Shown piece by piece: positions 3,207 to 22,638 of a DNA stretch of 23,616 nucleotides. The number at the start of each line of letters is the position of its first letter. The first letter of the stretch is position 1. Both the position numbers and the translations under genes were made by a program. The stretch is from a virus. The notes under the pieces are model-generated. The model ran no database searches and was not told the origin of the DNA. It worked only from the letters and a program-made list of their open reading frames with translations. The DNA lies in the IMG/VR virus record IMGVR_UViG_3300001838_000044, positions 1 to 23,616 of that record. One strand, given 5' to 3'.

Positions 3207-3626
3207 ATGCTATTAGAAAAACCCATGTCTTTCACCTATGACTCCCTTGAGGAGGCATTTCCCCCAGTCGATTGTGGCCATTTGCCGCTCGGCTCGCGCG
3301 TGATCGTTCAGATCCGTAAGGCCAAAAGCCAGACTGCTGGCGGCATCTACATCCCGGAAGAGGCTCGAAAGACCGAGGCCAGCAATACCCAGGTCGCCAA
3401 AGTGGTGGCCGTTGGCGCATTGGCCTACAAGAATCGGAACACCATGGAGCCTTGGCCCGAAGGCGCGTGGTGTGAAGTTGGCACCTATGCCCGTGTGCCT
3501 AAGTACGGAGGTGACCGCTGGGCCGTGAAGTCCGGCGACGAGGAGATAGAATTCGTGATGTTCAACGACCTGGACATGCTTGCCAAGGTCACCGGAAATC
3601 CGACTGCGATTCGGGCTTTTATCTAA
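3207..3626 (+). CDS. GroES-like co-chaperonin
   Basis: This 139-residue protein has the GroES (Cpn10) signature: PLGSRVIVQIRKAKSQTAGG (residues 27-46) followed by GIYIPEEARK. This corresponds to the N-terminal strand and mobile loop whose hydrophobic tripeptide (here IYI, 47-49) docks into GroEL. A VVAVG strand (66-70) follows, and the end YGGDRWAVKSGDEEIEF...LDMLAKV resembles the family's closing strands and the 'DILA' motif. It has about 25 extra N-terminal residues and about 15 between the VVAVG strand and the final barrel. It would act with host GroEL, as T4 gp31 does for its capsid protein, and it sits between portal and scaffold/capsid genes. GGAG at 3197-3200 supports this start over the internal ATG at 3225, which has no ribosome site. 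No GroEL is present in the window. Confidence 0.85.
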   Translation: MLLEKPMSFTYDSLEEAFPPVDCGHLPLGSRVIVQIRKAKSQTAGGIYIPEEARKTEASNTQVAKVVAVGALAYKNRNTMEPWPEGAWCEVGTYARVPKYGGDRWAVKSGDEEIEFVMFNDLDMLAKVTGNPTAIRAFI

Positions 3627-3645: not shown

Positions 3646-4620
3646 ATGGCAGGAGAAAACCTACTCATCGAAGATGATGAAGATCAGAAAGGCGGCAAGC
3701 CTCAGGAAGTCGAGTTTGTCCCGGTCGAATCCAAACAGGACCATGACGAAGATGACCACGAGGACGCGCGGCTTTCAGAAGACAATGAGGATCGTGAAGA
3801 ACTGCGTCGCAAACGTCGTGAGGAAAAGGCAGAGCGCGCAGCGCGTAGAAAACAGGCAATTGAGCGAGACAAGACCGAGCTTAACTTTTTGAGGCAGCGG
3901 AACGAGGATCTCGAGAAGCGCATATTCAACATTGAGAAAACGACAGTGGCCAATACGATCTCGGGCATCGACGCTCGTATTGCTGACACTGTGGCCGAAG
4001 TCAAGGCGGCCGAAAGAATCATGGCCCAGGCCATCGAGGCAGGCAACGGGGAAGACGCGGCGAAAGCCATGCGTATCCGCGATGCGGCCATGCAGCGCGT
4101 GCAGCAGCTCCAGGTCCATAAGCACCATCAAAATCAGGCGGCCCAACAACTGCATCAGCAAGCCCAAGTGCCGGCTCCTGCACCAGGTCCAGACCCTGAA
4201 ATCGCGAGCTTTGCCCAAGACTGGGTGTCCAGGAATACCTGGTACGACCCCGACGGCAAAGACGAGGCATCGAAGATTGTGCTGGCAATAGATCAAACTC
4301 TTGTAGAATCTGGCTATAATCCAAAGACAGAGGCATATTGGCGCGAGCTAGACAAGCGAGTGGCCAAGCGATTGCCAGACATCAAAGGAGGCGGTAACTA
4401 TGACGACAGTCAAGACGACGATCGCCGCGGACAGCGTAGAGGTCCGCTCATTGGTTCCAGCAGGGACAATGCTCCGTCGTCTTCCCGCCGCGAAGTCTAC
4501 ATCTCCCCAGAACGAAAGCAAGCCATGATCGATGCTGGTGTCTGGGAAGATGCCGTTCTACGTCAGCGTTACTTGAAGCAGTACGCGAAGTGGGACCGTG
4601 AAAACAATGCATCTCGCTGA
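3646..4620 (+). CDS. Putative capsid scaffolding protein
   Basis: This 324-residue, highly charged protein starts with AAAGGAG ahead of ATG 3646. It has an acidic N-terminus (about 1-55, many Asp/Glu), a long basic then mixed helix and coiled coil (about 55-175, ending in a Gln/His-rich tract), a proline linker (PAPAPGPDP), a short folded segment containing WVSRNTWYDPDGKDEASK (about 195-212), and a basic C-terminus that ends in a helical hairpin. Acidic N-terminal coiled-coil proteins with a basic helical C-terminus just upstream of the capsid gene are typical scaffolding proteins, which are expelled before DNA packaging. No protease gene was recognised nearby. The assignment rests on position and architecture, not on a motif. 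Confidence 0.6.
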   Translation: MAGENLLIEDDEDQKGGKPQEVEFVPVESKQDHDEDDHEDARLSEDNEDREELRRKRREEKAERAARRKQAIERDKTELNFLRQRNEDLEKRIFNIEKTTVANTISGIDARIADTVAEVKAAERIMAQAIEAGNGEDAAKAMRIRDAAMQRVQQLQVHKHHQNQAAQQLHQQAQVPAPAPGPDPEIASFAQDWVSRNTWYDPDGKDEASKIVLAIDQTLVESGYNPKTEAYWRELDKRVAKRLPDIKGGGNYDDSQDDDRRGQRRGPLIGSSRDNAPSSSRREVYISPERKQAMIDAGVWEDAVLRQRYLKQYAKWDRENNASR

Positions 4621-10118: not shown

Positions 10119-11114
10119 GTGGCAGTTTCAGGCACAGTCAGCACGACGGTTTTCAACACGCGTAAGGTCATTGACCACGCGTACTGGCGTTGCCGCGTTC
10201 CCCCTGAAGGTATCACGTCAGAGCAGATTGCTTTTGCTCTTGACGCACTCTACTTGATCCTCAGCATGCTAGCCAATCGTGGCTTGCAGCTCTGGTGTAT
10301 TGAGCGCTACTTGATGCCCATCTATCAAGCGCAAGGGCTGATCACCATGCCCAACGGCATTGTGGACATCCTCAACACCAACTTGCGCACCGTTGAAGTT
10401 GTGAACACTGGCGGAGCCGTAAACACATCTACTTCAACAACTTACCAAACTCTTTTCCCCACTGCAACTCAAGTCACGACCATCGGCATTAAATGGTCAG
10501 GGGCTTCTACAAGCTATGAGCTGCAAACGTCTCCAGATGGTGCCGGCTGGACCACGGTTGGTACCGAGGATGATCCAGGAGCCGTGGCGAATGACGTAAC
10601 ATGGGTTGACGTTCAAGGGTCCATAGCGAACCTCTATTTCAGAGTGAGAGCTACTGTCGGGACGCTGAACCAGACTCAAGTGCTGCTGGCCAACACGCCA
10701 AACGAGATCCCTATGGCTCGCTTGAACCGTGATGACTACGTCAACCTGCCCAACAAAGCATTTGAGGGCCGTCCGCTTCAATTCTGGGTTGATCGTTTGC
10801 TGAACAACCCTGTCTTGTATCTATGGCCTGTACCATCTGCCCAGTTTGTCTCTGCGCAAGTCGTTGTGTGGGTCAAGCGCTACATCATGGATGTAGGCAA
10901 GATGACGCAGGAAATTGAGGTCCCGCAGCGCTGGTATGATGCCATCGTCTATGTGTTGGCCTCACGCGTGGCTGAAAAGACTCCAACCGTGGATCCTCAG
11001 ATGATCGCCATCTTGGACCAGAAAGCGCAACGTGCCTTGCTGGAAGCCGAGAACGAAGAACGCGACGACAGTCCGATCTATCTGACTCCCAACATTGCGG
11101 TGTACACGCGATGA
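10119..11114 (+). CDS. Head-to-tail adaptor, P22 gp4-like, with inserted beta domain
   Basis: This 331-residue protein starts with GTG. Residues 1-92 are helical (EQIAFALDALYLILSMLANR; NGIVDILNTNLRTV) and 198-325 contain RLNRDDYVNLPNKAFEGRPL, LYLWPVPS, VPQRWYDAIVYVLASRVAEK and a Glu/Arg-rich terminal helix. This is the pattern of P22 gp4-like connector proteins that seal the portal after packaging. Residues about 95-195 appear to be an insertion: a Thr-rich linker, then a beta-sandwich-like stretch with YELQTSPDGAGWTTVG and LYFRVRATVG, similar in style to discoidin or carbohydrate-binding folds. The stop overlaps the next start (ATGA). The gp4 assignment is based on remembered family pattern and synteny. 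Confidence 0.65.
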   Translation: MAVSGTVSTTVFNTRKVIDHAYWRCRVPPEGITSEQIAFALDALYLILSMLANRGLQLWCIERYLMPIYQAQGLITMPNGIVDILNTNLRTVEVVNTGGAVNTSTSTTYQTLFPTATQVTTIGIKWSGASTSYELQTSPDGAGWTTVGTEDDPGAVANDVTWVDVQGSIANLYFRVRATVGTLNQTQVLLANTPNEIPMARLNRDDYVNLPNKAFEGRPLQFWVDRLLNNPVLYLWPVPSAQFVSAQVVVWVKRYIMDVGKMTQEIEVPQRWYDAIVYVLASRVAEKTPTVDPQMIAILDQKAQRALLEAENEERDDSPIYLTPNIAVYTR

Positions 11115-11410: not shown

Positions 11411-13860
11411 CAGTACCATCGAACCTCGTACCGACGTCGATCACTCAGCTGCCGGTGGCCCCGAACCCGACGTCGTCGGCGACCATGGTCTGCGTTATTG
11501 GCGGCATCACTTATCAGGTCCCCTTCATCGACCTGCAATCGACCGTCTCCGTCCCGGCTTCTCGTGAAATCAATACGGGCGGCGGCCTTCAAGGCGGTGG
11601 AGACTTATCCCAAAACCGTACCCTGAGCATCGCGACAGGTGGCGTGACCAGCGACAAGCTGGCCGTCAGCGGCGTCACTGCCAATACGTATGGTTCAGGG
11701 ACCATGATTCCTGTTTTGACTATCAGCAATAAGGGCCTGGTCACGAACGCGACTGAGGTCGCCCTGGTCATTTCTGGATATGTTCCTGATACCCGCCAGA
11801 TCATTGCTGGAACCGGTTTGACCGGAGGCGGCAACCTGCAAGCCAATCGGACGCTAACGGTTGGCTTTTCAGCTTTAACGCCTTCAGCCCTTGGATCTGC
11901 TTCGGCTGGCAGCTCAGATACGTCTGCCCGCGGTGACCACGTTCACCCGGCCCTAAACTTTGCAAACCTGACTGAATATACCGGCCTGCTACCATTGACG
12001 CGTGGCGGAACAGGCAAGCAGATCAACACCCTCACGGGTGGGGCAGTGTGGTATTCTGACGGAAGCAACGGTTTTTTGCAGACGGCTCAAGGCTCTGTCG
12101 GTCAAGTTTTGGTCTCGAATGGATCTTCCGCGCCGTCCTGGGGCTCTGCGCTGATCGTCTCAAACCAGCCAGCTAACTACGTCTACGCTGGCCCAACTTC
12201 TGGAGCAGCTGCCCCCACCGCCTTCCGCCTACTCGTCAACGACGACATTCCGTCGACCTTGACTGGCAAGACCATGAGCGGGGCTTTAAACACGTTCAGC
12301 GGCATCGCAAACGCGTCCCTGGTCAATTCTTCTGTGACTTTCAACGGTGTCACGGTGGCTTTGGGGGCTTCTGGAACGATTACCGCTGCTGCTACAAACG
12401 CCTTGACGATCGGGACCGGACTGTCTGGCACCAGCTATGATGGCTCGTCTCCGGTCACCATTGCCATTGATTCGACTGTTGCCACCTTGACAGGAAGCCA
12501 GACGTTGACCAACAAGTCAATGTCTGGCGCAAGCAACACCTTCACAAACATCCCCAACTCAGCCCTGTCCAACTACACCATCTCTGGTGTGGCGTTGGGT
12601 GGAAACCTGTTTGGGTTGACGATTGGAACAGGGCTGACAGGTGGCAGTTATAACGGTTCGGGTGCGGTCACCGTGGCGATCGATTCCACGGTTGCCACCC
12701 TGACAGACACTCAAACCCTGACGAACAAGTCAATCAGCGGGTCAACCAACACGTTGAGCAATATTCCAAACTCGGCGCTGACTAACTCGTTGATTACACT
12801 GGGCACGACCAACATTGCGTTGGGCGGTACATCTTTGACGCCAGCAGGTCTGACATCGGTGACGGTTACGCAAGACCCTACATCAGCCTTACAACTGGCG
12901 ACCAAGCAGTATGTGGACAACATTGCGTCTACTGGCTTGTATTACCATGCGCCAGTTCAAGCTGCGACTACGCAAAGCCTTGCCGCTCAGACGGGTGGCA
13001 CGGTCACCTACAACAATGGCACGGCTGGTGTTGGTGCGACCATCACTCTATCTGTGGCTTTGACCACATTGGATGGGTACAGCCTTGCTAACACAAACCG
13101 CATCTTGGTTAAAGACGAGGTCAACCAAGCCTACAATGGTGTTTATACATGGGCGACTGGCGGCACTGTCCTGACCCGCTCAACTGACACCGATTCCTAT
13201 GGCCCCGGCCCCGGCGACCTGAGCGAGAACGATTACTTCTTCGTGCAGAATGGCACGGTGAACAAGGGCAACTCGTACATCTGCGCAACGCAGGGCACGA
13301 TCACCTTTGGCACAACGGCCATCACTTTCTCGCAGTTCAGCACCTCGCAGGTCTACTCTGCTGGTACTGGACTGACGCTGACCAACACGACTTTCAGCAT
13401 CACCAACACAGCGGTTACTGCTACAAGCTATGGCTCAGCAACCCAGGTAGGCACGTTTACAGTCAATGCACAAGGTCAACTGACTGCCGCCGCAAACGTC
13501 ACAGTCACCCCGGCTGTTGGCTCGATCACGGGCCTTGGCACTGGGGTTGCAACGGCTCTGGCCGTCAACACCGGATCTGCTGGGGCAGTCGTGCTGTTCA
13601 ATGGAGCGCTTGGAACACCGTCGTCAGGCACCTTGACAAACGCGACAGGCTTGCCTTTGACTTCTGGCGTGACTGGCGTCTTGCCTGTTGCAAACGGCGG
13701 CACAAACGCCACAGCAACACCAACAGCGGGCGCCGTGGCGTATGGCGACGGTACAAAATACGCATTCAGTGCAGCTGGCACATCTGGCCAATTTTTAATC
13801 TCAGGGGGTACCGGTTCACCCACCTGGACTGACACTATCCCTGGAGGAACCTACGCATGA
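11407..13860 (+). CDS. Tail fibre protein 1 (817 aa, repeat-rich)
   Basis: This 817-residue Gly/Thr/Ser/Ala-rich protein starts in an ATGA overlap and ends in ATGA with the second fibre gene. It has two copies of a G-G-G-L-x-x-NRTL pattern (about residues 57-75 and 133-155), a SARGDHVHP motif (about 173-181), two copies of an [NR]GGT...GAV-Y-DG...GQ-L-S-G...W module (about 198-245 and 763-815), three QTLTNK-type repeats (about 284-475) and a beta domain (about 510-650) containing NRILVKDEVNQAYNGVYTW. These are standard building blocks of aquatic phage fibres and suggest a trimeric fibre shaft. No peptidase or chaperone is visible at its own C-terminus. GGAGGA at 13842-13847 inside its end serves the next gene. 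Confidence 0.75.
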   Translation: MTVPSNLVPTSITQLPVAPNPTSSATMVCVIGGITYQVPFIDLQSTVSVPASREINTGGGLQGGGDLSQNRTLSIATGGVTSDKLAVSGVTANTYGSGTMIPVLTISNKGLVTNATEVALVISGYVPDTRQIIAGTGLTGGGNLQANRTLTVGFSALTPSALGSASAGSSDTSARGDHVHPALNFANLTEYTGLLPLTRGGTGKQINTLTGGAVWYSDGSNGFLQTAQGSVGQVLVSNGSSAPSWGSALIVSNQPANYVYAGPTSGAAAPTAFRLLVNDDIPSTLTGKTMSGALNTFSGIANASLVNSSVTFNGVTVALGASGTITAAATNALTIGTGLSGTSYDGSSPVTIAIDSTVATLTGSQTLTNKSMSGASNTFTNIPNSALSNYTISGVALGGNLFGLTIGTGLTGGSYNGSGAVTVAIDSTVATLTDTQTLTNKSISGSTNTLSNIPNSALTNSLITLGTTNIALGGTSLTPAGLTSVTVTQDPTSALQLATKQYVDNIASTGLYYHAPVQAATTQSLAAQTGGTVTYNNGTAGVGATITLSVALTTLDGYSLANTNRILVKDEVNQAYNGVYTWATGGTVLTRSTDTDSYGPGPGDLSENDYFFVQNGTVNKGNSYICATQGTITFGTTAITFSQFSTSQVYSAGTGLTLTNTTFSITNTAVTATSYGSATQVGTFTVNAQGQLTAAANVTVTPAVGSITGLGTGVATALAVNTGSAGAVVLFNGALGTPSSGTLTNATGLPLTSGVTGVLPVANGGTNATATPTAGAVAYGDGTKYAFSAAGTSGQFLISGGTGSPTWTDTIPGGTYA
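12256..12840 (+). repeat. Three in-frame QTLTNK-type repeats in fibre 1
   Basis: Three related units start at 12256, 12502 and 12715 (246 and 213 bases apart). Each encodes TLT-[GN]-K-[ST]-[MI]-SG followed by NTF/NTL, I-N-[AP]-S-[AL]-L and a beta tail ending in ALG(G). Units two and three also share the preceding IGTGL and IDSTVATLT stretch. The units are clearly similar at protein level and partly at DNA level, giving a substrate for expansion, loss or exchange by recombination. Confidence 0.75.
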
Positions 13861-15197
13861 CCACGATTCTGATCAAGAAAAAGGACACCGCTGGCGCTCC
13901 TGCTCCTGGTGACCTGACCAACTCGGCCGGTGGTACCGAGATTGCCGTTAACACAGCAACCAAGCGCATCTATACAAAAGACAGCGGCGGTAACGTTGTT
14001 GAACTCGCAACCAATGCCTCGTCGTCAACAATTGACCAGCTGACCGTTACCACGTCCGAGACTCTGTCTTATGGCACTGCCAACGGCGTAGCCTACCTGA
14101 ACGGCTCCAAAGTCCTCACAACGGGGAGTGCGCTGCAATTCGACGGTAGCAACCTCGGCCTCGGGGTGACGCCGAGTGCGTGGAGTCAAGGTACTGCCTT
14201 TGAAATGTATCAAAAAGGTTATGGGCTTTGGAATGGCTCTGGAAGCCCGTCTAGCATTTACTTAACCGCAAACACTTATTATAACGCAGGGTTTAAATAC
14301 GCAAACACAGGCGGTTACGCAACAACGTACTACCAATACCAAGGTCAACACGTTTGGAATACAGCCCCCTCCGGCACAGCAGGCAATACCATCAGCTTCA
14401 CGCAGGCGATGACGCTGGATGCGAGTGGGCGGCTTTTGGTGGGTGCCACTGCTACCGATTCAGGCGCACAGTTCCGTTTCCAATACACGGGCAGTAGTCA
14501 AAACGGTTTGCAATTATTTGATAACACAAATACATCTGGTAGTCTGTTTGCTATTTTTGGATACAACACTGGGTCTGGAAATAACAACGCTGGCACGATT
14601 GCGCGTAACGGCACGGATAACGCCATTATTGTTAATGGCACTTCCTATCTTGCACTTGGCTCCAACGGCTCCGAATGCGCCCGTATCGACTCCAGCGGCA
14701 ACTTGCTGGTGGGGACGACGAGTGGGACTGGAAACGGAGAACGTATCTACTCCGTAACCTCAACTTTTGTGCCTTTTGCTGGAAGGCACTCTAGTACGTC
14801 GGCAGGTAAATTTTGGTTTTTTGGCCCCAATAGTGGAAATAACTATGTTGTGCAAAATCAAAGTTCTGTTGGCGTGTACATTACCGATGGCGGCACTTCT
14901 TGGACATCAACATCTGATGAACGGATAAAAACAAATTTAATACCAATTGAAAATGCCGTTCAAAAGGTTTCTACATTGAGAGCAGTTACTGGGCGTTTTA
15001 AAACAGATGATATTGGCGTCAGCCGCGCATTTCTAATTGCTCAAGATGTCAAAGCCGTTTTGCCAGAAGCGGTCAGTATGGATAACGATGAGATTGGAAC
15101 GCTTGGTGTGTCTTATACCGAAACAATCCCGCTGCTTGTTGCAGCAATCAAAGAACTTGCCGCCCGTGTCGCAACCCTAGAAGGAACCCAACCATGA
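13857..15197 (+). CDS. Tail fibre protein 2 with C-terminal peptidase S74 chaperone
   Basis: This 446-residue fibre has an N-terminal module (about 1-55; TEIAVNTATKRIYTKDSGGN) typical of virion attachment, a beta-rich shaft and tip with GLGVTPSAW and two LLVG(A/T)T strand motifs (about 75-345), and a C-terminal domain from Ser353. The SDERIK motif (Ser353, Lys358), LIAQDVKAVLPEAVS and a final coiled coil (VAAIKELAARVATLEG) identify the peptidase S74 intramolecular chaperone domain, which assists trimerisation and then cleaves itself off just before the Ser. This predicts a mature chain of about 352 residues. The shaft/tip and S74 segment are distinctly AT-richer than fibre 1. Likely the receptor-binding protein. 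Confidence 0.85.
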   Translation: MTTILIKKKDTAGAPAPGDLTNSAGGTEIAVNTATKRIYTKDSGGNVVELATNASSSTIDQLTVTTSETLSYGTANGVAYLNGSKVLTTGSALQFDGSNLGLGVTPSAWSQGTAFEMYQKGYGLWNGSGSPSSIYLTANTYYNAGFKYANTGGYATTYYQYQGQHVWNTAPSGTAGNTISFTQAMTLDASGRLLVGATATDSGAQFRFQYTGSSQNGLQLFDNTNTSGSLFAIFGYNTGSGNNNAGTIARNGTDNAIIVNGTSYLALGSNGSECARIDSSGNLLVGTTSGTGNGERIYSVTSTFVPFAGRHSSTSAGKFWFFGPNSGNNYVVQNQSSVGVYITDGGTSWTSTSDERIKTNLIPIENAVQKVSTLRAVTGRFKTDDIGVSRAFLIAQDVKAVLPEAVSMDNDEIGTLGVSYTETIPLLVAAIKELAARVATLEGTQP

Positions 15198-16158: not shown

Positions 16159-16428
16159 ATGGCTTGGTCAGACGTTCTCAAAGCAATCATCCCCATTGTG
16201 GTGGCATGCATCGCATGGCTGCTTGGGCAGGTGGCGTCCTTCTCTGAGCGTCTGACCAAGATTGAGGGGCAGATGCCTGCCCTCATCACCAAGGAAGGCA
16301 TTCCCACGGACAGCCCCATCAGCGCCGAGCGTCGCGCTGCTCAGAAAGAGCAGTTGATGGTTCACATCAACGACCTGCAAGTCAAAGTCAGGCTCCTCGA
16401 AGAGCACGAAAAAATGGGGAAAAAATAA
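16159..16428 (+). CDS. Second small membrane/coiled-coil protein, lysis region (89 aa)
   Basis: GAGGT lies 7 bases before ATG 16159. A single N-terminal membrane helix (about 8-26, AIIPIVVACIAWLLGQVA) is followed by SERLTKIEGQMPALITKEG, and then a long coiled coil (about 52-85). The order membrane helix, ERL, [AQ]MP, [VI]TKE matches the preceding protein, so the two may be diverged paralogues. It ends in TAATG with the endolysin gene. An i-spanin-like or holin-regulating role is possible from context, but no partner o-spanin with a lipobox was found. Confidence 0.6.
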   Translation: MAWSDVLKAIIPIVVACIAWLLGQVASFSERLTKIEGQMPALITKEGIPTDSPISAERRAAQKEQLMVHINDLQVKVRLLEEHEKMGKK

Positions 16429-16931
16429 TGGCTGACTTCACCCCGGCCTTTGAGGAGATGATCCGCGACGAGGGCGGGTATCAATTCACCGACATCCCGG
16501 GGGACAACGGAGGTCAGACCTACGCCGGGATCGCACGCAAGCCCAACCCTGACTGGGCTGGCTGGTCGTACATTGACCGCAAAGAGACACCCCCGGCCCA
16601 GATGGTGCGCGACTTCTACAAGACGCGGTTTTGGGACGACATCAGAGGAGACCAGATTGCCAATCAACGCGTGGCCTCCTGCATTTTCAACTTCTATGTC
16701 AACACGGGCAAGCCAGCCAAGACCATCACACAGTTGGTGGTGGGCTCCACCCCTGACGGCATCATCGGAGACATCACGGTCTCCAAGATCAACGCGATGG
16801 AGGCCGACAGGTTCATCCTGACCTTCACGCTGGGCAAGATCGCTCGATACGCAGAAATCTGCAACCGCAACAAAGACCAGACCAAATTCCTGCTGGGCTG
16901 GATCAACCGAGCCTTGAAAGGAGCCAAGTGA
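16428..16931 (+). CDS. Endolysin, GH108-type N-acetylmuramidase
   Basis: This 167-residue protein overlaps the previous stop (TAATG). The N-terminal half has FEEMIRDEGGYQFTDIPGDN followed by GGQTYAGIARKPNPDWAGW: the EGGY motif places the proposed catalytic Glu at residue 15 of glycoside hydrolase family 108. The centre (FYKTRFWDDIRGDQI; VASCIFNFYVNTG) continues that domain. The C-terminal half from about 95 (TITQLVVG, PDGIIGDITVSKINAM, FLLGWINRA) matches the PG_binding_3-like peptidoglycan-binding segment. It would cut the glycan strand of peptidoglycan at lysis. No signal peptide or SAR segment is seen, so export would depend on the adjacent holin. Confidence 0.88.
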   Translation: MADFTPAFEEMIRDEGGYQFTDIPGDNGGQTYAGIARKPNPDWAGWSYIDRKETPPAQMVRDFYKTRFWDDIRGDQIANQRVASCIFNFYVNTGKPAKTITQLVVGSTPDGIIGDITVSKINAMEADRFILTFTLGKIARYAEICNRNKDQTKFLLGWINRALKGAK

Positions 16932-17326
16932 TGGACTTGCTGGGCATCGGATCAGTCATTGAAAGTGTCGGCAAGGTTGCCGAGCATTTCGTCACCACGG
17001 ACAAGGAGAGGATGGCGCTGGAGATCGAGGCACGCAAGCTCGATCAGGCCAACGACATGGCCCAGCTTGCCGTCAACACCGAGGAGGCCAAGAGTGCGAG
17101 CATTTTTGTCAGCGGCTGGAGACCTGCTATTGGTTGGACTTGTGGCCTTGGGCTTCTATATGTCAGCTTCCTTCTACCAATTGCGCAGTTCGTCGCAAAG
17201 ATGTACGGATACGAAGGATCGTTCCCTGAGGTAGACACGACCATCACCATGCAGGTGCTCTTTGGCATGCTGGGGTTGTCAGGGATGCGCACCTATGAGA
17301 AAACCAAGGGCGTAGCATCGAAGTGA
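16931..17326 (+). CDS. Holin, GTA/3TM-type
   Basis: ATG 16931 overlaps the endolysin stop (TGATG) and has AAAGGAG at 16917-16923 with 7-base spacing. An in-frame GTG at 16928 is closer to that site and less favoured. The 131-residue protein has an amphipathic N-terminal half (about 1-60, heptad-like and acidic), then WRPAIGWTCGLGLLYVSFLL (63-82), a second hydrophobic segment (about 104-118, MQVLFGMLGLSGM) and MRTYEK (119-124). WRPxxGW plus a terminal R-T-x-E-K is characteristic of the GTA-type 3TM holin family. Holins make the membrane lesions that release endolysin at a timed moment. Confidence 0.8.
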   Translation: MDLLGIGSVIESVGKVAEHFVTTDKERMALEIEARKLDQANDMAQLAVNTEEAKSASIFVSGWRPAIGWTCGLGLLYVSFLLPIAQFVAKMYGYEGSFPEVDTTITMQVLFGMLGLSGMRTYEKTKGVASK

Positions 17327-17335
17327 GGATATGAA

Positions 17336-17518
17336 ATGACCACACCATCTTGGGTTCTGACCTATGACAGCCTGACCGAAACGGTCAAGCAGTACCTTGA
17401 GCGCAAGGATGCTGCGGTGGTCAACGCCATCCCGACCTTTATCACGCTGGCCGAGTTTGAGATCGCAGAGCAGATCAAGACCTTGATCAACGTCCCGCAC
17501 TTTGAGAGGAACGTGTAA
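17336..17518 (+). CDS. Truncated paralogue of the tail-adaptor protein (60 aa)
   Basis: GAGGA at 17325-17329 precedes ATG 17336. The product has LTYDSLTETVKQYLERKDAA, then VVNAIPTFITLAEFEIAEQI. This aligns with the first 55 residues of the next gene: SL..-V-..-YLER-..-AV-..-IP-..-ITLAE-..-I-..-K. It ends at a stop whose A starts the next ATG (TAATG at 17516-17520). It could be the remnant of a full-length duplicated adaptor cut short by deletion, or a retained regulatory N-terminal domain. The intact ribosome site and frame suggest it is still translated. Confidence 0.6.
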   Translation: MTTPSWVLTYDSLTETVKQYLERKDAAVVNAIPTFITLAEFEIAEQIKTLINVPHFERNV

Positions 17519-18171
17519 TGCCTCAGGCAATGACCTTCACGTCGCTTCAAAACGACGTTCGCAGCTACCTGGAACGTGGAGCATCCGCTGTCACGGACCC
17601 GATCGTCTATGCTCAGATCCCCAACCTGATCACGCTGGCTGAACGCCGCATCAGCCGTGACCTGAAGGTTCAAGGCTTCCAGACCGTCGTTGTGACCAAT
17701 CTGCAGGCTGGCGTGGCTGTGCTGCCTAAGCCAGACCGCTGGCGCGAGACTATCAGCATGAACGTGGGAACTGGGGCCCAGTACAACACCAGAAAGCAGA
17801 TCTTTACTCGTGACTATGAGTATTGCCGCACATATTGGCCCAATGAGACAGAGGTCGATGAGCCTGAGTTTTATGCGGACTACAACTACACCAACTGGCT
17901 AGTTGTGCCCACCCCTGATCTTGCCTACCCTGTCGAGATCCTATATTACGAGCTGCCTGCATTGCTGGACGACAGCAATCAGACCAACTGGCTCACCCAA
18001 TACGCTCCCAACTTGCTGTTGTATGCAACCCTGTTGGAGGCAACACCATTCCTGAAAAACGACGAACGCATCCCGGTCTGGCAAAACATGTACGCCATGG
18101 CAGCCCAAGCGCTGCAAGGTGAGGACTTGAGCAAGATCCTGGACCGCGGCGCAGTGAGAAACGAGGCTTGA
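17518..18171 (+). CDS. Tail adaptor / tubular protein A-like (217 aa)
   Basis: This 217-residue protein begins with an N-terminal helical region (DVRSYLERGASAV, then ITLAERRISRDLKVQGFQ) and continues with VLPKPDRWRETISM, a Tyr/Asp-rich centre (DYEYCRTYWPNETEVDEPEF), PVEILYYELPALLDD and TQYAPNLLLYATLLEATPFL, with a helical C-terminus. This order and the LPKPDRWRE motif fit the phage adaptor family related to T7 gp11 (tail tubular protein A) and other connector proteins. It probably forms the ring joining the neck to the tail nozzle, consistent with the hub gene downstream. Overlap with the upstream paralogue suggests coupled translation. Confidence 0.65.
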   Translation: MPQAMTFTSLQNDVRSYLERGASAVTDPIVYAQIPNLITLAERRISRDLKVQGFQTVVVTNLQAGVAVLPKPDRWRETISMNVGTGAQYNTRKQIFTRDYEYCRTYWPNETEVDEPEFYADYNYTNWLVVPTPDLAYPVEILYYELPALLDDSNQTNWLTQYAPNLLLYATLLEATPFLKNDERIPVWQNMYAMAAQALQGEDLSKILDRGAVRNEA

Positions 18172-18172
18172 G

Positions 18173-19363
18173 ATGACCGTCTACACCAACATCTTTGGCG
18201 GTAGCAATATCGCACCAGCAGAGATAAGCTACGCTGAAGTCTCTCTGACCCAAGACACGACCTTTGATTGGTCGCTTGAGACGGCACCGTCTACCAATAT
18301 CATCGCAGGCATCATGGATGTGACCGCTACGGCTGGTCCTTGGTCCATGACCTTGCCAAGTGCATTGGAAGCATCTACTGGCCAAGCCATCCTTATCAAC
18401 AACGTCGGGGCTGAGACCTTCATCATCAAGAATGCTGCCGGCGTACAAATTTGTGCCCCGACCCAAGGGTCTGTGTGGCAGCTTTACTTGACAGACAACA
18501 CCACATTGGGTGGAACCTGGCAAGCTTTCCTGTACGGCGCCCAGGTCTCGACGGCCAACGCAGCGTCGCTTGCAGGAACCGGCCTTGTGGCCATCGGCAC
18601 CCTTTTGTCGTTGGCCATGCCAGTCACGTTCTTTGGCACCAATTACACGGCCGGTGTGGCCGATCGGGCCAAGACCCTGATCTGGAACGGTGGTGCCGGC
18701 ACCTTGACCATGACGTCTGCAGGCACCCTTGGCGACAACTGGTTCTTCCAGCTTCGCAACGAAGGTACTGGCGCCTTGGTGGTCGATCCTCCAGGATCTC
18801 AAACCATCAACGGTCTGTCAACCTTGACTTTTCAGCCGGGTGATTCTGCCATCATCTTCACTGACGGCAACAACTTCTACACGATCGGCTACGGCCAGTC
18901 GCCTGTCTTTGCGTTTGACTACACCTCGATTAGCGTGGCAGGATTCGGTAACTATGTGCTGTCTGGCAGCGAACTGAACCGCATTGCCTACAACTTCACG
19001 GGTGTGTTGACAGGCAACCGCAACATCATCGTGCCGCAAACCGTTCAGCAATACTGGGTGGCCAACAACACGACAGGTCCTTACACCTTGACCGTCAAGA
19101 CGGCAATCGCCTCTGGCTATACTGTCAGTCAAGGTTCGCGCTCGATCCTGTATTGCGACGGCACCAACGTGGTTGCAGCTGACACGGGTGGCGTGGCGGT
19201 TCCGATCAGCGTGTCTGACGGCGGCACGGGGGCTACGACCGCTGGTAACGCCTTGATCAACCTGGGTGGTACGGCAACAGGTATCGGCATCTTCACGGCG
19301 GCTTCCCAAGCTGCTGCCCAAGCGGCCATCGGTCTTGATCCAATCGAAGGCGGAACGTACTAA
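18173..19363 (+). CDS. Tail fibre-like / appendage protein (396 aa)
   Basis: This 396-residue beta-rich protein begins 1 base after the adaptor stop and ends in TAATG with the hub gene. It is Gly/Thr/Ala-rich with repeated short strands (LTQDTTFDWSLETAP; LPSALEASTGQAILINNVGA; GTLTMTSAGTLGDNWFFQLR). Near the C-terminus are ISVSDGGTGATTAGNALINL and AASQAAAQAAIGLDPIEGGT, the linker and A-x-x-L-x-x-L-G-L motif that often connect phage fibre modules. It is missing a fibre tip or S74 domain. Its place between adaptor and hub suggests a tail-attached spike, or the adaptor for fibres 1 and 2. Confidence 0.6.
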   Translation: MTVYTNIFGGSNIAPAEISYAEVSLTQDTTFDWSLETAPSTNIIAGIMDVTATAGPWSMTLPSALEASTGQAILINNVGAETFIIKNAAGVQICAPTQGSVWQLYLTDNTTLGGTWQAFLYGAQVSTANAASLAGTGLVAIGTLLSLAMPVTFFGTNYTAGVADRAKTLIWNGGAGTLTMTSAGTLGDNWFFQLRNEGTGALVVDPPGSQTINGLSTLTFQPGDSAIIFTDGNNFYTIGYGQSPVFAFDYTSISVAGFGNYVLSGSELNRIAYNFTGVLTGNRNIIVPQTVQQYWVANNTTGPYTLTVKTAIASGYTVSQGSRSILYCDGTNVVAADTGGVAVPISVSDGGTGATTAGNALINLGGTATGIGIFTAASQAAAQAAIGLDPIEGGTY

Positions 19364-21006
19364 TGACAACCCCGGTCATCATCAAGTCGTTGCCGGGCAT
19401 CAAGCGTGACGGCACAAAGTACGAGGGCGACTATTACGTCGACGGCCAATGGGTCCGTTGGCAGCGTAGCCTTCCTCGCAAGATTGGCGGGTATGCCGTT
19501 ATCAACCGCTACCTGACTGAGATCAGCCGTGGGGTCAAGACCTTCACGCAAAACGGCCTGACGTATTTCCATTCTGGAAGCGCCGGCTGTCTCGAGCGCT
19601 TTACCATTGACGCCAGTGGCAACTCTAGCCTAATCACCGACCGCACACCGACAACGTACACTGCCCATGATGAAAATCTCTGGCAGTTTGACGTCATCTA
19701 CGACACCCAGTCGATTCCTGCGGCCAACATGCTGGTCGCTCAAGTGGCTCCCAATGCCGGCTGTCTCTGCAACACGGACGGCGGCCAGATTTTTTTGGGC
19801 GACCTTACCGGGACCAATCCCCTGGTCGAAGTGACCACTTTCCCGGCTGGGGTCAGCGTGACTGGCGGCGTGGTCGCCTTGCACCCCTACCTAATGTATT
19901 TTGGCAATGATGGCGTCATCGGCTGGTCCGTGGCAGGGGCCCCATCAGATTTGATTGGTCTGGGCTCAGGGAGTGCGCGTGTAGCAGGTCAAAAGATCGT
20001 TCGTGGACTTGCCCTTAGGGGTGGCCCAGGAAACGCGCCAGCGGGCCTCTTTTGGAGCGCAGACGCCGTTATCCGGGCATCGTTTGTCGGTGGGACTGAG
20101 GTCTTTCAATTTGACACGATCAGCCCGTATTCGAGCATCTTGTCTGCAGCCTCCGTCATCGAATATGACGGCCAATACTTCTGGCTTGGAACAGATCGCA
20201 TGCTGATGTTCAATGGCGTGGTTCGGGAGATTCCGAACAACCTGAACATCAACTACTTCTATGACGGCCTGAACAGGGAAGCTGCTCAACGTGTCTGGGC
20301 ATTCAAGGTCCCTCGTTTCGGCGAGATCTGGTGGTGCTACCCAAGAGGCACCGCCACCGAGTGCACCCACGCCATCATCTACAACGTCCGTGAGAACACC
20401 TGGTACGACACCGAGCTGCCCAATGGCGGCCGGACCGCTGGTGAATGGTCTCCGTTGTATGCGGCTCCCTTGCTTTGCGGTCTGGAGCAATCCACCTTTG
20501 TGCCGAACAACCGGATCACCGAGGACGGAAACTTGCGCATCACCCAAGACAACGACCAGCGGATCGTCATGCCTGAAGAAGGCTACAAGGTCTGGCAGCA
20601 TGAGCATGATGTGAACGAGATCGACGGTCAGTTCATTACAGCAGTCCCCTCGTACTTTGAGACTGCTGACATGAGCATGCTGGTCCCGGCAGGAGGCTCC
20701 AAGAACAAATGGATTCGCGTGGAATCCATGGAGCCTGATTTTGTACAGTCAGAAAACATGACCGTGCAAATGACCGGTCGAGCCAACGCCAAGGCCTTGG
20801 AAGTCAACGGCCCGGAGCGCGTGATCTTTGCCCAGCCCACCGATCCATACCAGCAGATTGTCTGGTTCAAGGAAGAACGCCGAGAACTTCGTTTCAAGTT
20901 CACCTCAAACACCATCAATGGCGACTACCAGATGGGCCAGATCATTGCGCACATCGGCGAAGCCGACGGAACGGTGCTTGGCGGTGTCGCAGGGGGTTCC
21001 ACGTGA
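19363..21006 (+). CDS. Tail hub / nozzle protein, P22 gp10-like
   Basis: This 547-residue protein starts in TAATG. The N-terminus (VIIKSLPGIKRDGTKYEGDY, then WVRWQRSLPRKIGGY) followed by repeated strand groups (LYFGNDGVIGWS; AGLFWSADAVIRASFVGGTE; YDGQYFWLGTDRMLMFNGVV; FGEIWWCYPR; NTWYDTELP) fits a beta-propeller like that of P22 gp10 and T7 gp12, which form the tail nozzle through which DNA leaves. The C-terminus (RVESMEPDFV; RELRFKFTSNTINGDYQMGQ) is a further beta domain. Length is above P22 gp10 (472 residues). Its place just before small tail and ejection genes agrees. Similarity is by remembered pattern. Confidence 0.6.
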   Translation: MTTPVIIKSLPGIKRDGTKYEGDYYVDGQWVRWQRSLPRKIGGYAVINRYLTEISRGVKTFTQNGLTYFHSGSAGCLERFTIDASGNSSLITDRTPTTYTAHDENLWQFDVIYDTQSIPAANMLVAQVAPNAGCLCNTDGGQIFLGDLTGTNPLVEVTTFPAGVSVTGGVVALHPYLMYFGNDGVIGWSVAGAPSDLIGLGSGSARVAGQKIVRGLALRGGPGNAPAGLFWSADAVIRASFVGGTEVFQFDTISPYSSILSAASVIEYDGQYFWLGTDRMLMFNGVVREIPNNLNINYFYDGLNREAAQRVWAFKVPRFGEIWWCYPRGTATECTHAIIYNVRENTWYDTELPNGGRTAGEWSPLYAAPLLCGLEQSTFVPNNRITEDGNLRITQDNDQRIVMPEEGYKVWQHEHDVNEIDGQFITAVPSYFETADMSMLVPAGGSKNKWIRVESMEPDFVQSENMTVQMTGRANAKALEVNGPERVIFAQPTDPYQQIVWFKEERRELRFKFTSNTINGDYQMGQIIAHIGEADGTVLGGVAGGST

Positions 21007-21230
21007 TCACGCAGCCCGTTATAATCGGGCTACGCGATTGGGCCGATCAGATCGTTATGGATCTGTCAACCTATGGCGTACTTATGAGGCTGGACGATGA
21101 GGACAAGTGGCAGGACTGGGCTTTGCAATTCTGCGTTATCTCGGGATTGAGCCAAAAGAACGTTCCCAATCCATTTGACTTTGCCGACTGGCGCACCTGG
21201 GCGCAACGTTTTGTACAAATGGTGGATTGA
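21003..21230 (+). CDS. Small hypothetical protein (75 aa), GTG start
   Basis: GTG 21003 overlaps the hub stop as GTGA, with AGGGGG at 20991-20996 six bases upstream. The 75-residue protein has an N-terminal beta/helix stretch, an acidic centre (RLDDEDKWQDWALQFC) and Trp/Phe-rich C-terminus (PFDFADWRTWAQRFVQMVD). It ends in TGATG with the acyl carrier gene. The abundance of tryptophan and compact size suggest a tail-tip or assembly protein rather than part of the acyl pair, but no family is recognised. Confidence 0.6.
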   Translation: MITQPVIIGLRDWADQIVMDLSTYGVLMRLDDEDKWQDWALQFCVISGLSQKNVPNPFDFADWRTWAQRFVQMVD

Positions 21231-21520
21231 TGACTGACCAAGAATTTATCGAGCTCCTGAATCAGGTAGCTAAAAAAGCCAAGCCGTTTCACAACGAGCT
21301 TGCCCCTATTGACGACATGAACGCCAATTTGGCCGACGTCGGTCTTGATAGCCTAGACACGTTGATGTGTATCGTCTATCTTTGCGAAATCTATGACGTT
21401 GAAGATGAAAAAAGCAAGGAGATGACAGCCACTACTCCTCGAGAGTGCTTGGACTTCCTTGAACAATGGGGCCGGCGCAAGCCGGAGTCTCTTGAAGCAG
21501 CTGTAGGAATGATCAAATGA
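21230..21520 (+). CDS. Acyl carrier protein (phage-encoded)
   Basis: The ATG at 21230 overlaps the previous stop; an in-frame TTG at 21227 is possible but less likely. This 96-residue acidic helical protein carries GLDSLD at residues 38-43, the signature of the 4'-phosphopantetheine attachment site, with Ser41 in the right place at the start of helix II. LMCIVYLCEIYDVE then follows as in ACP helix II and loop 2 (E. coli AcpP reads DSLDTVELVMALEEEF), and the end TPRECLDFLEQW fits helix IV. Residues about 79-96 are extra. Modification would need a phosphopantetheinyl transferase, none of which is visible here, so a host enzyme is implied. It is directly coupled to the ketosynthase gene. Confidence 0.9.
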   Translation: MTDQEFIELLNQVAKKAKPFHNELAPIDDMNANLADVGLDSLDTLMCIVYLCEIYDVEDEKSKEMTATTPRECLDFLEQWGRRKPESLEAAVGMIK

Positions 21521-22638
21521 GAATCTTTCTTACAGAATCACGCACCTGCTCCCAAACAGAGACCGATCTTTTTGAAGATCACACCTATCCGCAAAGGATT
21601 CACTGGTTCAAGGAGACCTATGCCCGTGTCAAAAGTGGACTTTTTTATCCTCCACACATGATTGCTGAGCGGGTTTTAGATCCCAAACTGCTTGCCCATC
21701 TCAAAACCACGCAGCCTGGCAAGACTGCTTTTATCTTGGCTTCTGGAAGCAGTAACTTTGCTGGAGAAGGCAACAAGATTGGGCGTGAAAACAGCCTGTC
21801 TTTTAACTACAAGTTCCTCCCATTGACGTTGACCAATGTGTATGCCGGTCGCGTAGCATCGCAGTGCGGGGAAATGGACTACGTCGCCACAGATGCCACG
21901 GCCTGTACTTCCAGCCTTAAAGTTTTGATGGACGTACAGACCCTGATCAAGTTTTATGGCTTTGACCGGGTCATCGTGCTGGCCGTCGAGGACCAAGTGA
22001 ACAACATGACACTCCAGTTTTTTGGAGAAGCCAAAGCAACCCTGACCGAAGACATGGCCGAGGCTCACCAGGTGGTTCCCAGTGCCTTCGATTCAAAGAA
22101 TTTTGGGTTCTACATAGGCCAGGGCGCCGCGTTTGCCGTGTTCGAGTCTGAGGAGGCTCTAAAACGCAGTGGATTGGCCCCAAAAGCCGAACTTTTGTCA
22201 GCGTATACCGCTGCAGAAGTCGCCAAAAATGCCATTGGACAACGTGAAGATGGTCAGGGCTTTTGTCGGGCAATTGAGGGGGCCATGAAATTTGCACAAA
22301 TTTGCCCGGAACAAATTAAAATCGTGAAAACTCATGGTACCGGTACCAGATCTAACAACGATGCCGAAAAGGCAGCGCTGGAAAGGTGCTTGAGTGGGTT
22401 TGTAGCGACATCGTATAAGCAACGAATCGGCCATACGATGGGAGCGAGCGGACTGTTAGAGACCCTCTTGCTGTTCAATGATTTAGAAAAGGGAACTGTC
22501 CCTGGGATCTTGAATCGGACTGAGGAGGATCATGTGTTCCTCTCTGAAGCGGTTGAAGCGCCTAAAGGGATGGTGTTAAGCTTGAGTGCTGGCATGGGCA
22601 ACGTGTTCAGTGCTGCGCTTTTCAACATGAGGATCTAA
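21517..22638 (+). CDS. Beta-ketoacyl-ACP synthase (KAS II/FabF-like thiolase fold)
   Basis: This 373-residue ketosynthase overlaps the ACP stop (ATGA), with AGGA at 21505-21508. The nucleophile Cys130 sits in TDATACTSSL, His273 in KTHGTGTRSNND, Lys301 and His306 in KQRIGHTMGASG: the Cys-His-His triad and Lys of condensing enzymes. A FDSKNFGFYIGQGAAFAVFE stretch (191-210) matches the RDGFVLGEGAG region. It would extend an acyl chain by two carbons from malonyl-ACP. Compared with E. coli FabF (about 413 residues), the Cys lies about 34 residues earlier, so the N-terminal part is shortened and divergent. The terminal GFGGTN motif reads GMGNVF (359-364), replacing the Phe gatekeeper by Met360. 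Hand-counted GC in two 120-base blocks is 49% and 46%, versus 61% in the hub gene. Confidence 0.9.
   Translation: MRIFLTESRTCSQTETDLFEDHTYPQRIHWFKETYARVKSGLFYPPHMIAERVLDPKLLAHLKTTQPGKTAFILASGSSNFAGEGNKIGRENSLSFNYKFLPLTLTNVYAGRVASQCGEMDYVATDATACTSSLKVLMDVQTLIKFYGFDRVIVLAVEDQVNNMTLQFFGEAKATLTEDMAEAHQVVPSAFDSKNFGFYIGQGAAFAVFESEEALKRSGLAPKAELLSAYTAAEVAKNAIGQREDGQGFCRAIEGAMKFAQICPEQIKIVKTHGTGTRSNNDAEKAALERCLSGFVATSYKQRIGHTMGASGLLETLLLFNDLEKGTVPGILNRTEEDHVFLSEAVEAPKGMVLSLSAGMGNVFSAALFNMRI

Follow-up and report, generated by a model that had tools for sequence, protein, structure and literature searches.

A 60-codon open reading frame before an SU10-type adaptor gene probably left as a scar when two related phages exchanged lysis cassettes

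A 60-codon open reading frame (ORF) that directly precedes an intact adaptor gene is, with a probability of about 0.95, the right-hand scar that remained after two related phages had exchanged their lysis cassettes. The window, i.e., the whole stretch of DNA analyzed, is a virus record of 23,616 nucleotides (23.6 kb; positions are counted from its first letter), and in it the ORF occupies positions 17336 to 17518 and the intact adaptor gene, here adaptor B (217 aa), positions 17518 to 18171, both on the plus strand. In the event that we propose, a phage with the order GH108 endolysin, holin, adaptor A would have recombined with a phage in which an M15 endopeptidase gene is followed by adaptor B, presumably through short-homology recombination during co-infection. 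The right crossover would have joined a point in codons 49 to 51 of adaptor A to one near the 3' end of the M15 gene, over few common bases and in the same frame, and the left crossover would lie near 16410 to 16430. The recombinant would have acquired a different endolysin and holin and would have retained an intact adaptor B, whose own ribosome-binding site forms part of the M15 3' end. What is left over is an in-frame chimera of the first 48 to 50 residues of adaptor A and the last 10 to 12 of the endopeptidase, which would be translated from the ribosome-binding site of adaptor A, end at the start of adaptor B and have no function of its own. The fragment is most likely a recent passenger. 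The chance of an in-frame fusion is 1 in 3.

Two features of the ORF that a preliminary description had reported, namely that it ends at the next start and that it resembles the beginning of the following adaptor, were seen again. Its stop codon overlaps the ATG of adaptor B within TAATG (17516 to 17520), and a GAGG-like ribosome-binding site lies just 5' of 17336, the same as in a related locus, L003. In BLASTP comparisons, residues 7 to 48 of the ORF align with residues 4 to 50 of the 217-aa adaptor at 40% identity (E = 7.3e-8 with the ORF as query, 2.6e-7 with the adaptor as query), and 0 of 5,000 shuffled versions of the ORF attained the real alignment score. Both proteins match phrog_2941 (virion structural protein; E = 5e-8 for the ORF and 7.9e-29 for the adaptor), the ORF covering only positions 4 to 44 of 208. 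The ORF matched no Pfam family up to E = 1, and hence not the SU10_adaptor profile (PF24175) either. The match had been described as spanning the first 55 residues; the similarity is real, but it stops at about residue 48 to 50, and the remaining 10 to 12 residues derive from an M15 gene instead of an adaptor.

Profile, sequence and modeled fold identify adaptor B as a SU10-type head-to-tail adaptor. It matches PF24175 (SU10_adaptor) at E = 7.6e-26 over profile positions 1 to 185 of 194 (score 92.2 versus a cut-off of 27); a PDB sequence search returned the SU10 adaptor 7z47 (E = 1.1e-10), and the best Foldseek match of its model was 7z47_B (E = 1.1e-10, TM 0.61). The model (mean pLDDT 81) places helices at residues 7 to 19, 28 to 32 and 34 to 49, and strands from residue 54. 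Because residues 7 to 49 are mostly helical in the model and strands start at 54, the 60-aa ORF corresponds to the N-terminal helices and has neither the central beta region nor the C-terminal helices. According to the structural report on SU10 (PMC9509320), gp11 is laid out as a helix bundle plus a central dock region. Adaptors A and B join this family (PF24175; PDB 7z47) by profile, and B also by fold. Unlike the full gp11 described there, the 60-aa ORF carries the N-terminal 48 to 50 residues alone, so that a single chain with both helix bundle and dock region is not found in it. A genome scan returned 15 adaptor relatives, every one in metagenome-assembled bins, and they therefore permit no reliable host inference.

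The front part of the ORF (17336 to 17481, plus strand; at least 48 codons plus 2 nt, right edge uncertain by at most 5 nt) corresponds to the 5' part of the type A adaptor gene, a SU10-family adaptor of other phages. Viral contigs were searched with the 60-aa ORF (A search; the best 80 of 390 relatives were kept) and with adaptor B (B search; the best 80 of 126); a third search, on contigs partly shared with the other two, kept the best 80 of 96. The sequence extends 200 nt or more to the 5' side of the adaptor start at 75, 76 and 79 of the 80 loci, respectively. At 78 of the best 80 of 390 A-search loci, the match runs on into a type A adaptor of about 211 aa, and 77 of these align to its last residue, L056 being cut by the contig end; the other two belong to the window's own clade and share its arrangement. 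Translation of 38 of the best 80 A loci gave an open frame of 208 to 214 codons from the match in the 36 that lie outside the window clade. Residues 1 to 50 of the ORF are identical (50/50) to the 211-aa adaptors of L003 and L004, and type A matches the SU10_adaptor profile at E = 1.2e-22. Adaptor A and the window's adaptor B are 43% identical, and homologues of the window's 396-aa and 547-aa genes follow both types where the sequence reaches far enough; since the locus and the two genes after it are the same, A and B are orthologues, not a duplicated pair. No second adaptor occurs in the stretch compared at 78 of the 80 kept A loci (best 80 of 390), and a search at E = 1e-4 found none at 78 of the 80 kept B loci (best 80 of 126), the other two being of the window clade. 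One of these 78 B loci, L120, has an adaptor remnant that is too short for such a search. A remainder of adaptor A was also sought elsewhere in the window, where its residues 51 to 211 match only adaptor B (next match, E ≥ 0.39).

The tail part of the ORF (17482 to 17518, plus strand; left edge uncertain by at most 5 nt) corresponds to an M15 endopeptidase gene. In L084, the locus that served as proxy for the B parent, a 112-aa Peptidase_M15_4 gene (3663 to 4001, E = 1.5e-8) lies directly 5' of adaptor B, its stop overlapping the B ATG (B from 4001) by one base, and such a gene directly precedes B in several of B's closest relatives. The M15 gene of the B relatives ends in KSLVDVPHFERNV and a stop, the window's ORF in KTLINVPHFERNV and a stop; the common C-terminal pattern is [IV]-[DN]-V-P-H-F-E-R-N-V-stop. 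M15 residues 100 to 112 match window positions 17477 to 17515 (E = 0.002), and from this likeness we assign the last 10 to 12 codons of the ORF to the M15 3' end. The Shine-Dalgarno-like GAGAGG of adaptor B sits within this M15-derived part. With only residues 100 to 112 matched, the Peptidase_M15_4 catalytic domain is absent from the chimeric ORF. A complete M15 gene was looked for elsewhere in the window, and only residues 100 to 112 at the junction were found; the next match, which lies opposite the adaptor gene on the minus strand (E = 0.01, 29% over 55 aa), was taken as chance. Genes of the M15_4 type also stand before adaptor A, in 8 of 84 rows of our gene labels, and are therefore not peculiar to the B lineage; the tail is assigned to that lineage because of its direct join to B, not because an M15_4 gene is present.

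At the junction, the nearest relative of the window switches abruptly from one lineage to the other. More specifically, L003 is identical to the window at 135 of 146 positions in 17336 to 17481 and at 36 of 119 in 17482 to 17600, whereas L084 is identical at 39 of 146 and 110 of 119, respectively; both the position-by-position comparison and a sliding view put the switch between these two proxy parents at 17481/17482. Each unrecombined arrangement is present among the relatives, i.e., GH108-holin-A in L003 and M15-B in L084. In a comparison of 35 A loci with 13 B loci carrying the M15 tail, the window sides with A as far as 17481, where its C is found in 34 of 35 A loci and in 4 of 13 B loci, and with B from 17487, where its T is found in 13 of 13 B loci and in 0 of 35 A loci. 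The break could thus lie a few bases to the right of 17481/17482 when other A loci serve as proxy, and the alignments place the in-frame junction within 17481 to 17487, not at 17500 to 17520, where a deletion or frameshift had earlier been supposed. About 4 to 6 nt are common to both proxies at this point. As judged from the aligned loci, the breakpoint is shown to within a few bases, with relatives of both sources at hand. The first 150 nt of the ORF differ from L003 at 13 nucleotides, all synonymous, and only two sites, 17431 and 17482, are private to the window when it is compared with L003 to L005. When the junction is set from L003 and L084, site 17482 falls on its right side, which leaves a single private site, synonymous, on the left; the lack of amino-acid changes therefore suits a recent event as well as selection. 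So few private sites point to a recent event and give no measure of selection on the fragment.

The sequence that arrived with the front part comprises a lysis cassette. A GH108 endolysin gene (16428 to 16931, plus strand; Glyco_hydro_108, E = 4.9e-16; PG_binding_3, E = 6.1e-9) is followed by a GTA_holin_3TM holin gene (16928 to 17326, plus strand; PF11351, E = 3.5e-17); the latter is listed from GTG at 16928, and ATG at 16931 was used for comparison. The endolysin is identical to that of L003, where it precedes the holin and a full-length adaptor A, at 140 of 167 residues, and the holin at 125 of 131. Window positions 16428 to 17481 (GH108, three-transmembrane holin and start of A) are 85% identical to L003 at the nucleotide level and contiguous there with the full-length adaptor A, and positions 17475 to 22164 are 81% identical to L084. 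In place of GH108 and holin, L084 has a 174-aa gene without family assignment and the M15 gene. Because the window's endolysin and holin match the A lineage and L084 has other genes there, the event is read as a lysis-cassette exchange. The order GH108-holin-A was found at high identity in L003 only; L062 has it at 55% and 49%. On the left, the BLAST match with L003 starts where the GH108 gene does, and the gene ends at this start have a similar GAAAAGATGGGGAAAAAATGAT-like stretch in common. The 89-aa gene at 16159 to 16428 is closer to L015 (80%) and L009 (76%), both A-type loci, than to the B proxy L084 (72%), so the imported piece may extend further left.

Two other origins of the ORF have to be weighed against this exchange. 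As two adaptor-family sequences stand in tandem and the first is truncated, the preliminary description had proposed a duplicated adaptor shortened by deletion. A tandem duplication of adaptor B with subsequent deletion or decay of the first copy is, however, scarcely credible. The closest relative of the fragment is not its neighbor (about 40% identity) but adaptor A of other phages, as in L003 (50/50), and for this reason we take the fragment to have come from another phage by recombination. Further, its last codons are those of an M15 endopeptidase, not of an adaptor, and the sequence upstream as far as 16428 travels with A in L003. The words scar and shortened adaptor thus hold, and duplicated and deletion do not. 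A full-length counterpart of the first copy does exist in relatives, as adaptor A, yet at no examined locus (best 80 each of the A and B searches) does it occur together with B, and 78 of the 80 kept A loci lack a second adaptor. An artefact of metagenome assembly is also most improbable, if slightly less so. Scans of viral contigs for the exact junction, and likewise for a degenerate version, returned only 3300001844_000007 and 3300001843_000006, so that the junction is present in three records only, two of them from samples with neighboring identifiers. Against an artefact, these separate records agree over 3,565 nt (0 and 2 mismatches, respectively), the 4 to 6 nt common to the proxies are far below an assembly overlap, and a second such chimera exists elsewhere.

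This second chimera lies in L120 (3300006802_008300, positions 3423 to 3476), directly before adaptor B, and is an independent adaptor/M15 fusion of 17 aa, MTAAVMTYDSLVFERNV. It joins MTAAVMTYDSL to VFERNV and a stop, in frame, and the stop overlaps the B ATG; the gene before it is a phage lysozyme (PF00959, E = 2.9e-31). The relatives thus do not have only unrelated small genes at this place. No other viral contig scanned held an exact encoding of the 11-residue adaptor start. Frame-blind degenerate DNA scans for adaptor starts joined to M15 tails, limited to gaps of 0 to 30 and 31 to 61 nt, gave 4 and 6 stretches, respectively, of which one in ten (the L120 contig) was real by eye on the translations; for longer gaps, the window's type, only the window's own junction was scanned. 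A further break is found in L086, L087, L089 and L090, which share 97% identity with L088 across the initial 550 nt of B and lose this similarity within about 20 nt upstream of the B start. Being identical to one another there, these four count as one event, and their alignment identifies it as a replacement of lysis genes upstream of B, near the window's crossover point. The gene preceding the adaptor was labeled automatically in 163 rows, in which some contigs appear twice. The 79 B rows showed an M15_4-type gene in 18 (13 at ≥77% identity and 5 at 27 to 30%), M15_3 in 13, GH108 in 2, a 174-aa-like gene in 2, none of the probes in 32 and too little upstream sequence in 12. For the 84 A rows, which include 5 of the window's clade counted under holin, the labels were holin (8), GH108 (5), M15_3 (12), M15_4-type (8), none (37) and too little (14). 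By these labels, the lysis genes 5' of the adaptor clearly vary, though many rows are unlabeled. The M15 3' end, which doubles as the ribosome-binding site of B, seems to have served as a crossover point more than once (window clade, L120 and L086 group).

Whether the ORF does anything is a separate matter. It might be kept for translational coupling through TAATG, replacing the stop overlap of the lost M15 gene at the B start; this is possible and a reasonable second reading after that of a passenger, although we think it improbable. In its favor, the chimera restores the one-base overlap that the M15 stop has with the B start in L084; both chimeras, in the window and in L120, preserve the reading frame of the M15 tail and terminate at the B ATG, and frame and stop overlap in these two cases are what the idea is built on. 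However, two of two in frame is expected by chance 1 time in 9, and the ORF screens could see only chimeras that are in frame or retain YLER, the frame-blind scans having covered gaps of 0 to 61 nt. Adaptor B also has its own ribosome-binding site, and a stop-start overlap is dispensable, as the L086/L089 group shows with an upstream gene that stops 25 nt short of the B start (position 3975 of L089). RNA folding over the B start region likewise gave no significant structure (z = -1.22 in the window, -0.29 in L084 and +1.86 in L120). With still lower probability, junctions at such a hot spot may be selected for in-frame fusion, which would turn the incoming adaptor start into a translated leader ending on the resident ATG; in that case, adaptor/endolysin chimeras would arise repeatedly and serve as coupling ORFs instead of being debris. 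The preliminary description had also considered a retained N-terminal domain with a modulating role in ring assembly in the neck. The break does fall where the N-terminal helices end in the model of adaptor B, and none of the 13 nucleotides at which the first 150 nt of the ORF depart from L003 changes an amino acid, but this fits a recent event equally. The product would be without the central beta region and C-terminal helices, the 60 aa alone model at low confidence (mean pLDDT 63, single sequence), and the form occurs in no examined relative except the window clade and, as a much shorter remnant, L120. Nothing was found in favor of a modulation of ring assembly, and such a role is very unlikely.

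The exchange has a known parallel. According to PMC9371310, lactococcal phage P335 and prophage bIL286 exchanged part of a neck-passage-structure gene and the entire holin-endolysin cassette. Similarly, the window's cassette arrived with a piece of the neighboring neck (adaptor) gene. That case involved homologous recombination in laboratory strains, whereas the window's junction has few common bases and is known from metagenome contigs only; unlike there, the window joins an adaptor start to an endopeptidase end, forming a chimeric ORF beside an intact adaptor. In PMC3706429, illegitimate recombination is proposed at module boundaries and as a main source of phage mosaicism, and in keeping with this, modules of different histories abut sharply near gene ends in the window. 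Beyond that account, the window offers relatives of both parents, a breakpoint within few bases and an in-frame ORF. Among the matches listed for literature on gene remnants, translational coupling, microhomology and gene boundaries, none describes such a scar, which is not proof of absence. The window case is a new, cleanly resolved instance of a known process, ordinary mosaicism. It illustrates almost to the base how phages swap lysis cassettes yet spare the neighboring virion gene: the donor's adaptor gene is broken near its start and the recipient's endopeptidase gene near its end, and the ribosome-binding site of the resident adaptor is retained. For annotators it is a warning that a small "adaptor paralogue" ahead of an adaptor gene can be a chimeric scar.

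Several other genes of the window were noted. The record 3300001844_000007 is 100% identical to the window from 14697 on (BLAST) and matches it before that in two pieces at 70 to 83% (window 13857 to 15197), which suggests, by alignment, a recent exchange inside a tail gene ending in a Peptidase_S74 chaperone domain. An ORF at 3207 to 3626 matches Cpn10/GroES (PF00166, E = 5.4e-10), and the 331-aa protein encoded at 10119 to 11114 has a weak F5/8 type C match under the Pfam cut-off (E = 5.3e-5). Downstream of the tail genes, positions 21227 to 21520 encode an acyl-carrier-like protein with weak Pfam, PHROG and NCBIfam matches, whose GLDSL motif we take to be a phosphopantetheine site. The overlapping gene at 21517 to 22638 encodes a fabF-like beta-ketoacyl synthase (E = 1.6e-34, well short of the equivalog cut-off), and MW202545.1 also carries an annotated 3-oxoacyl-ACP synthase.
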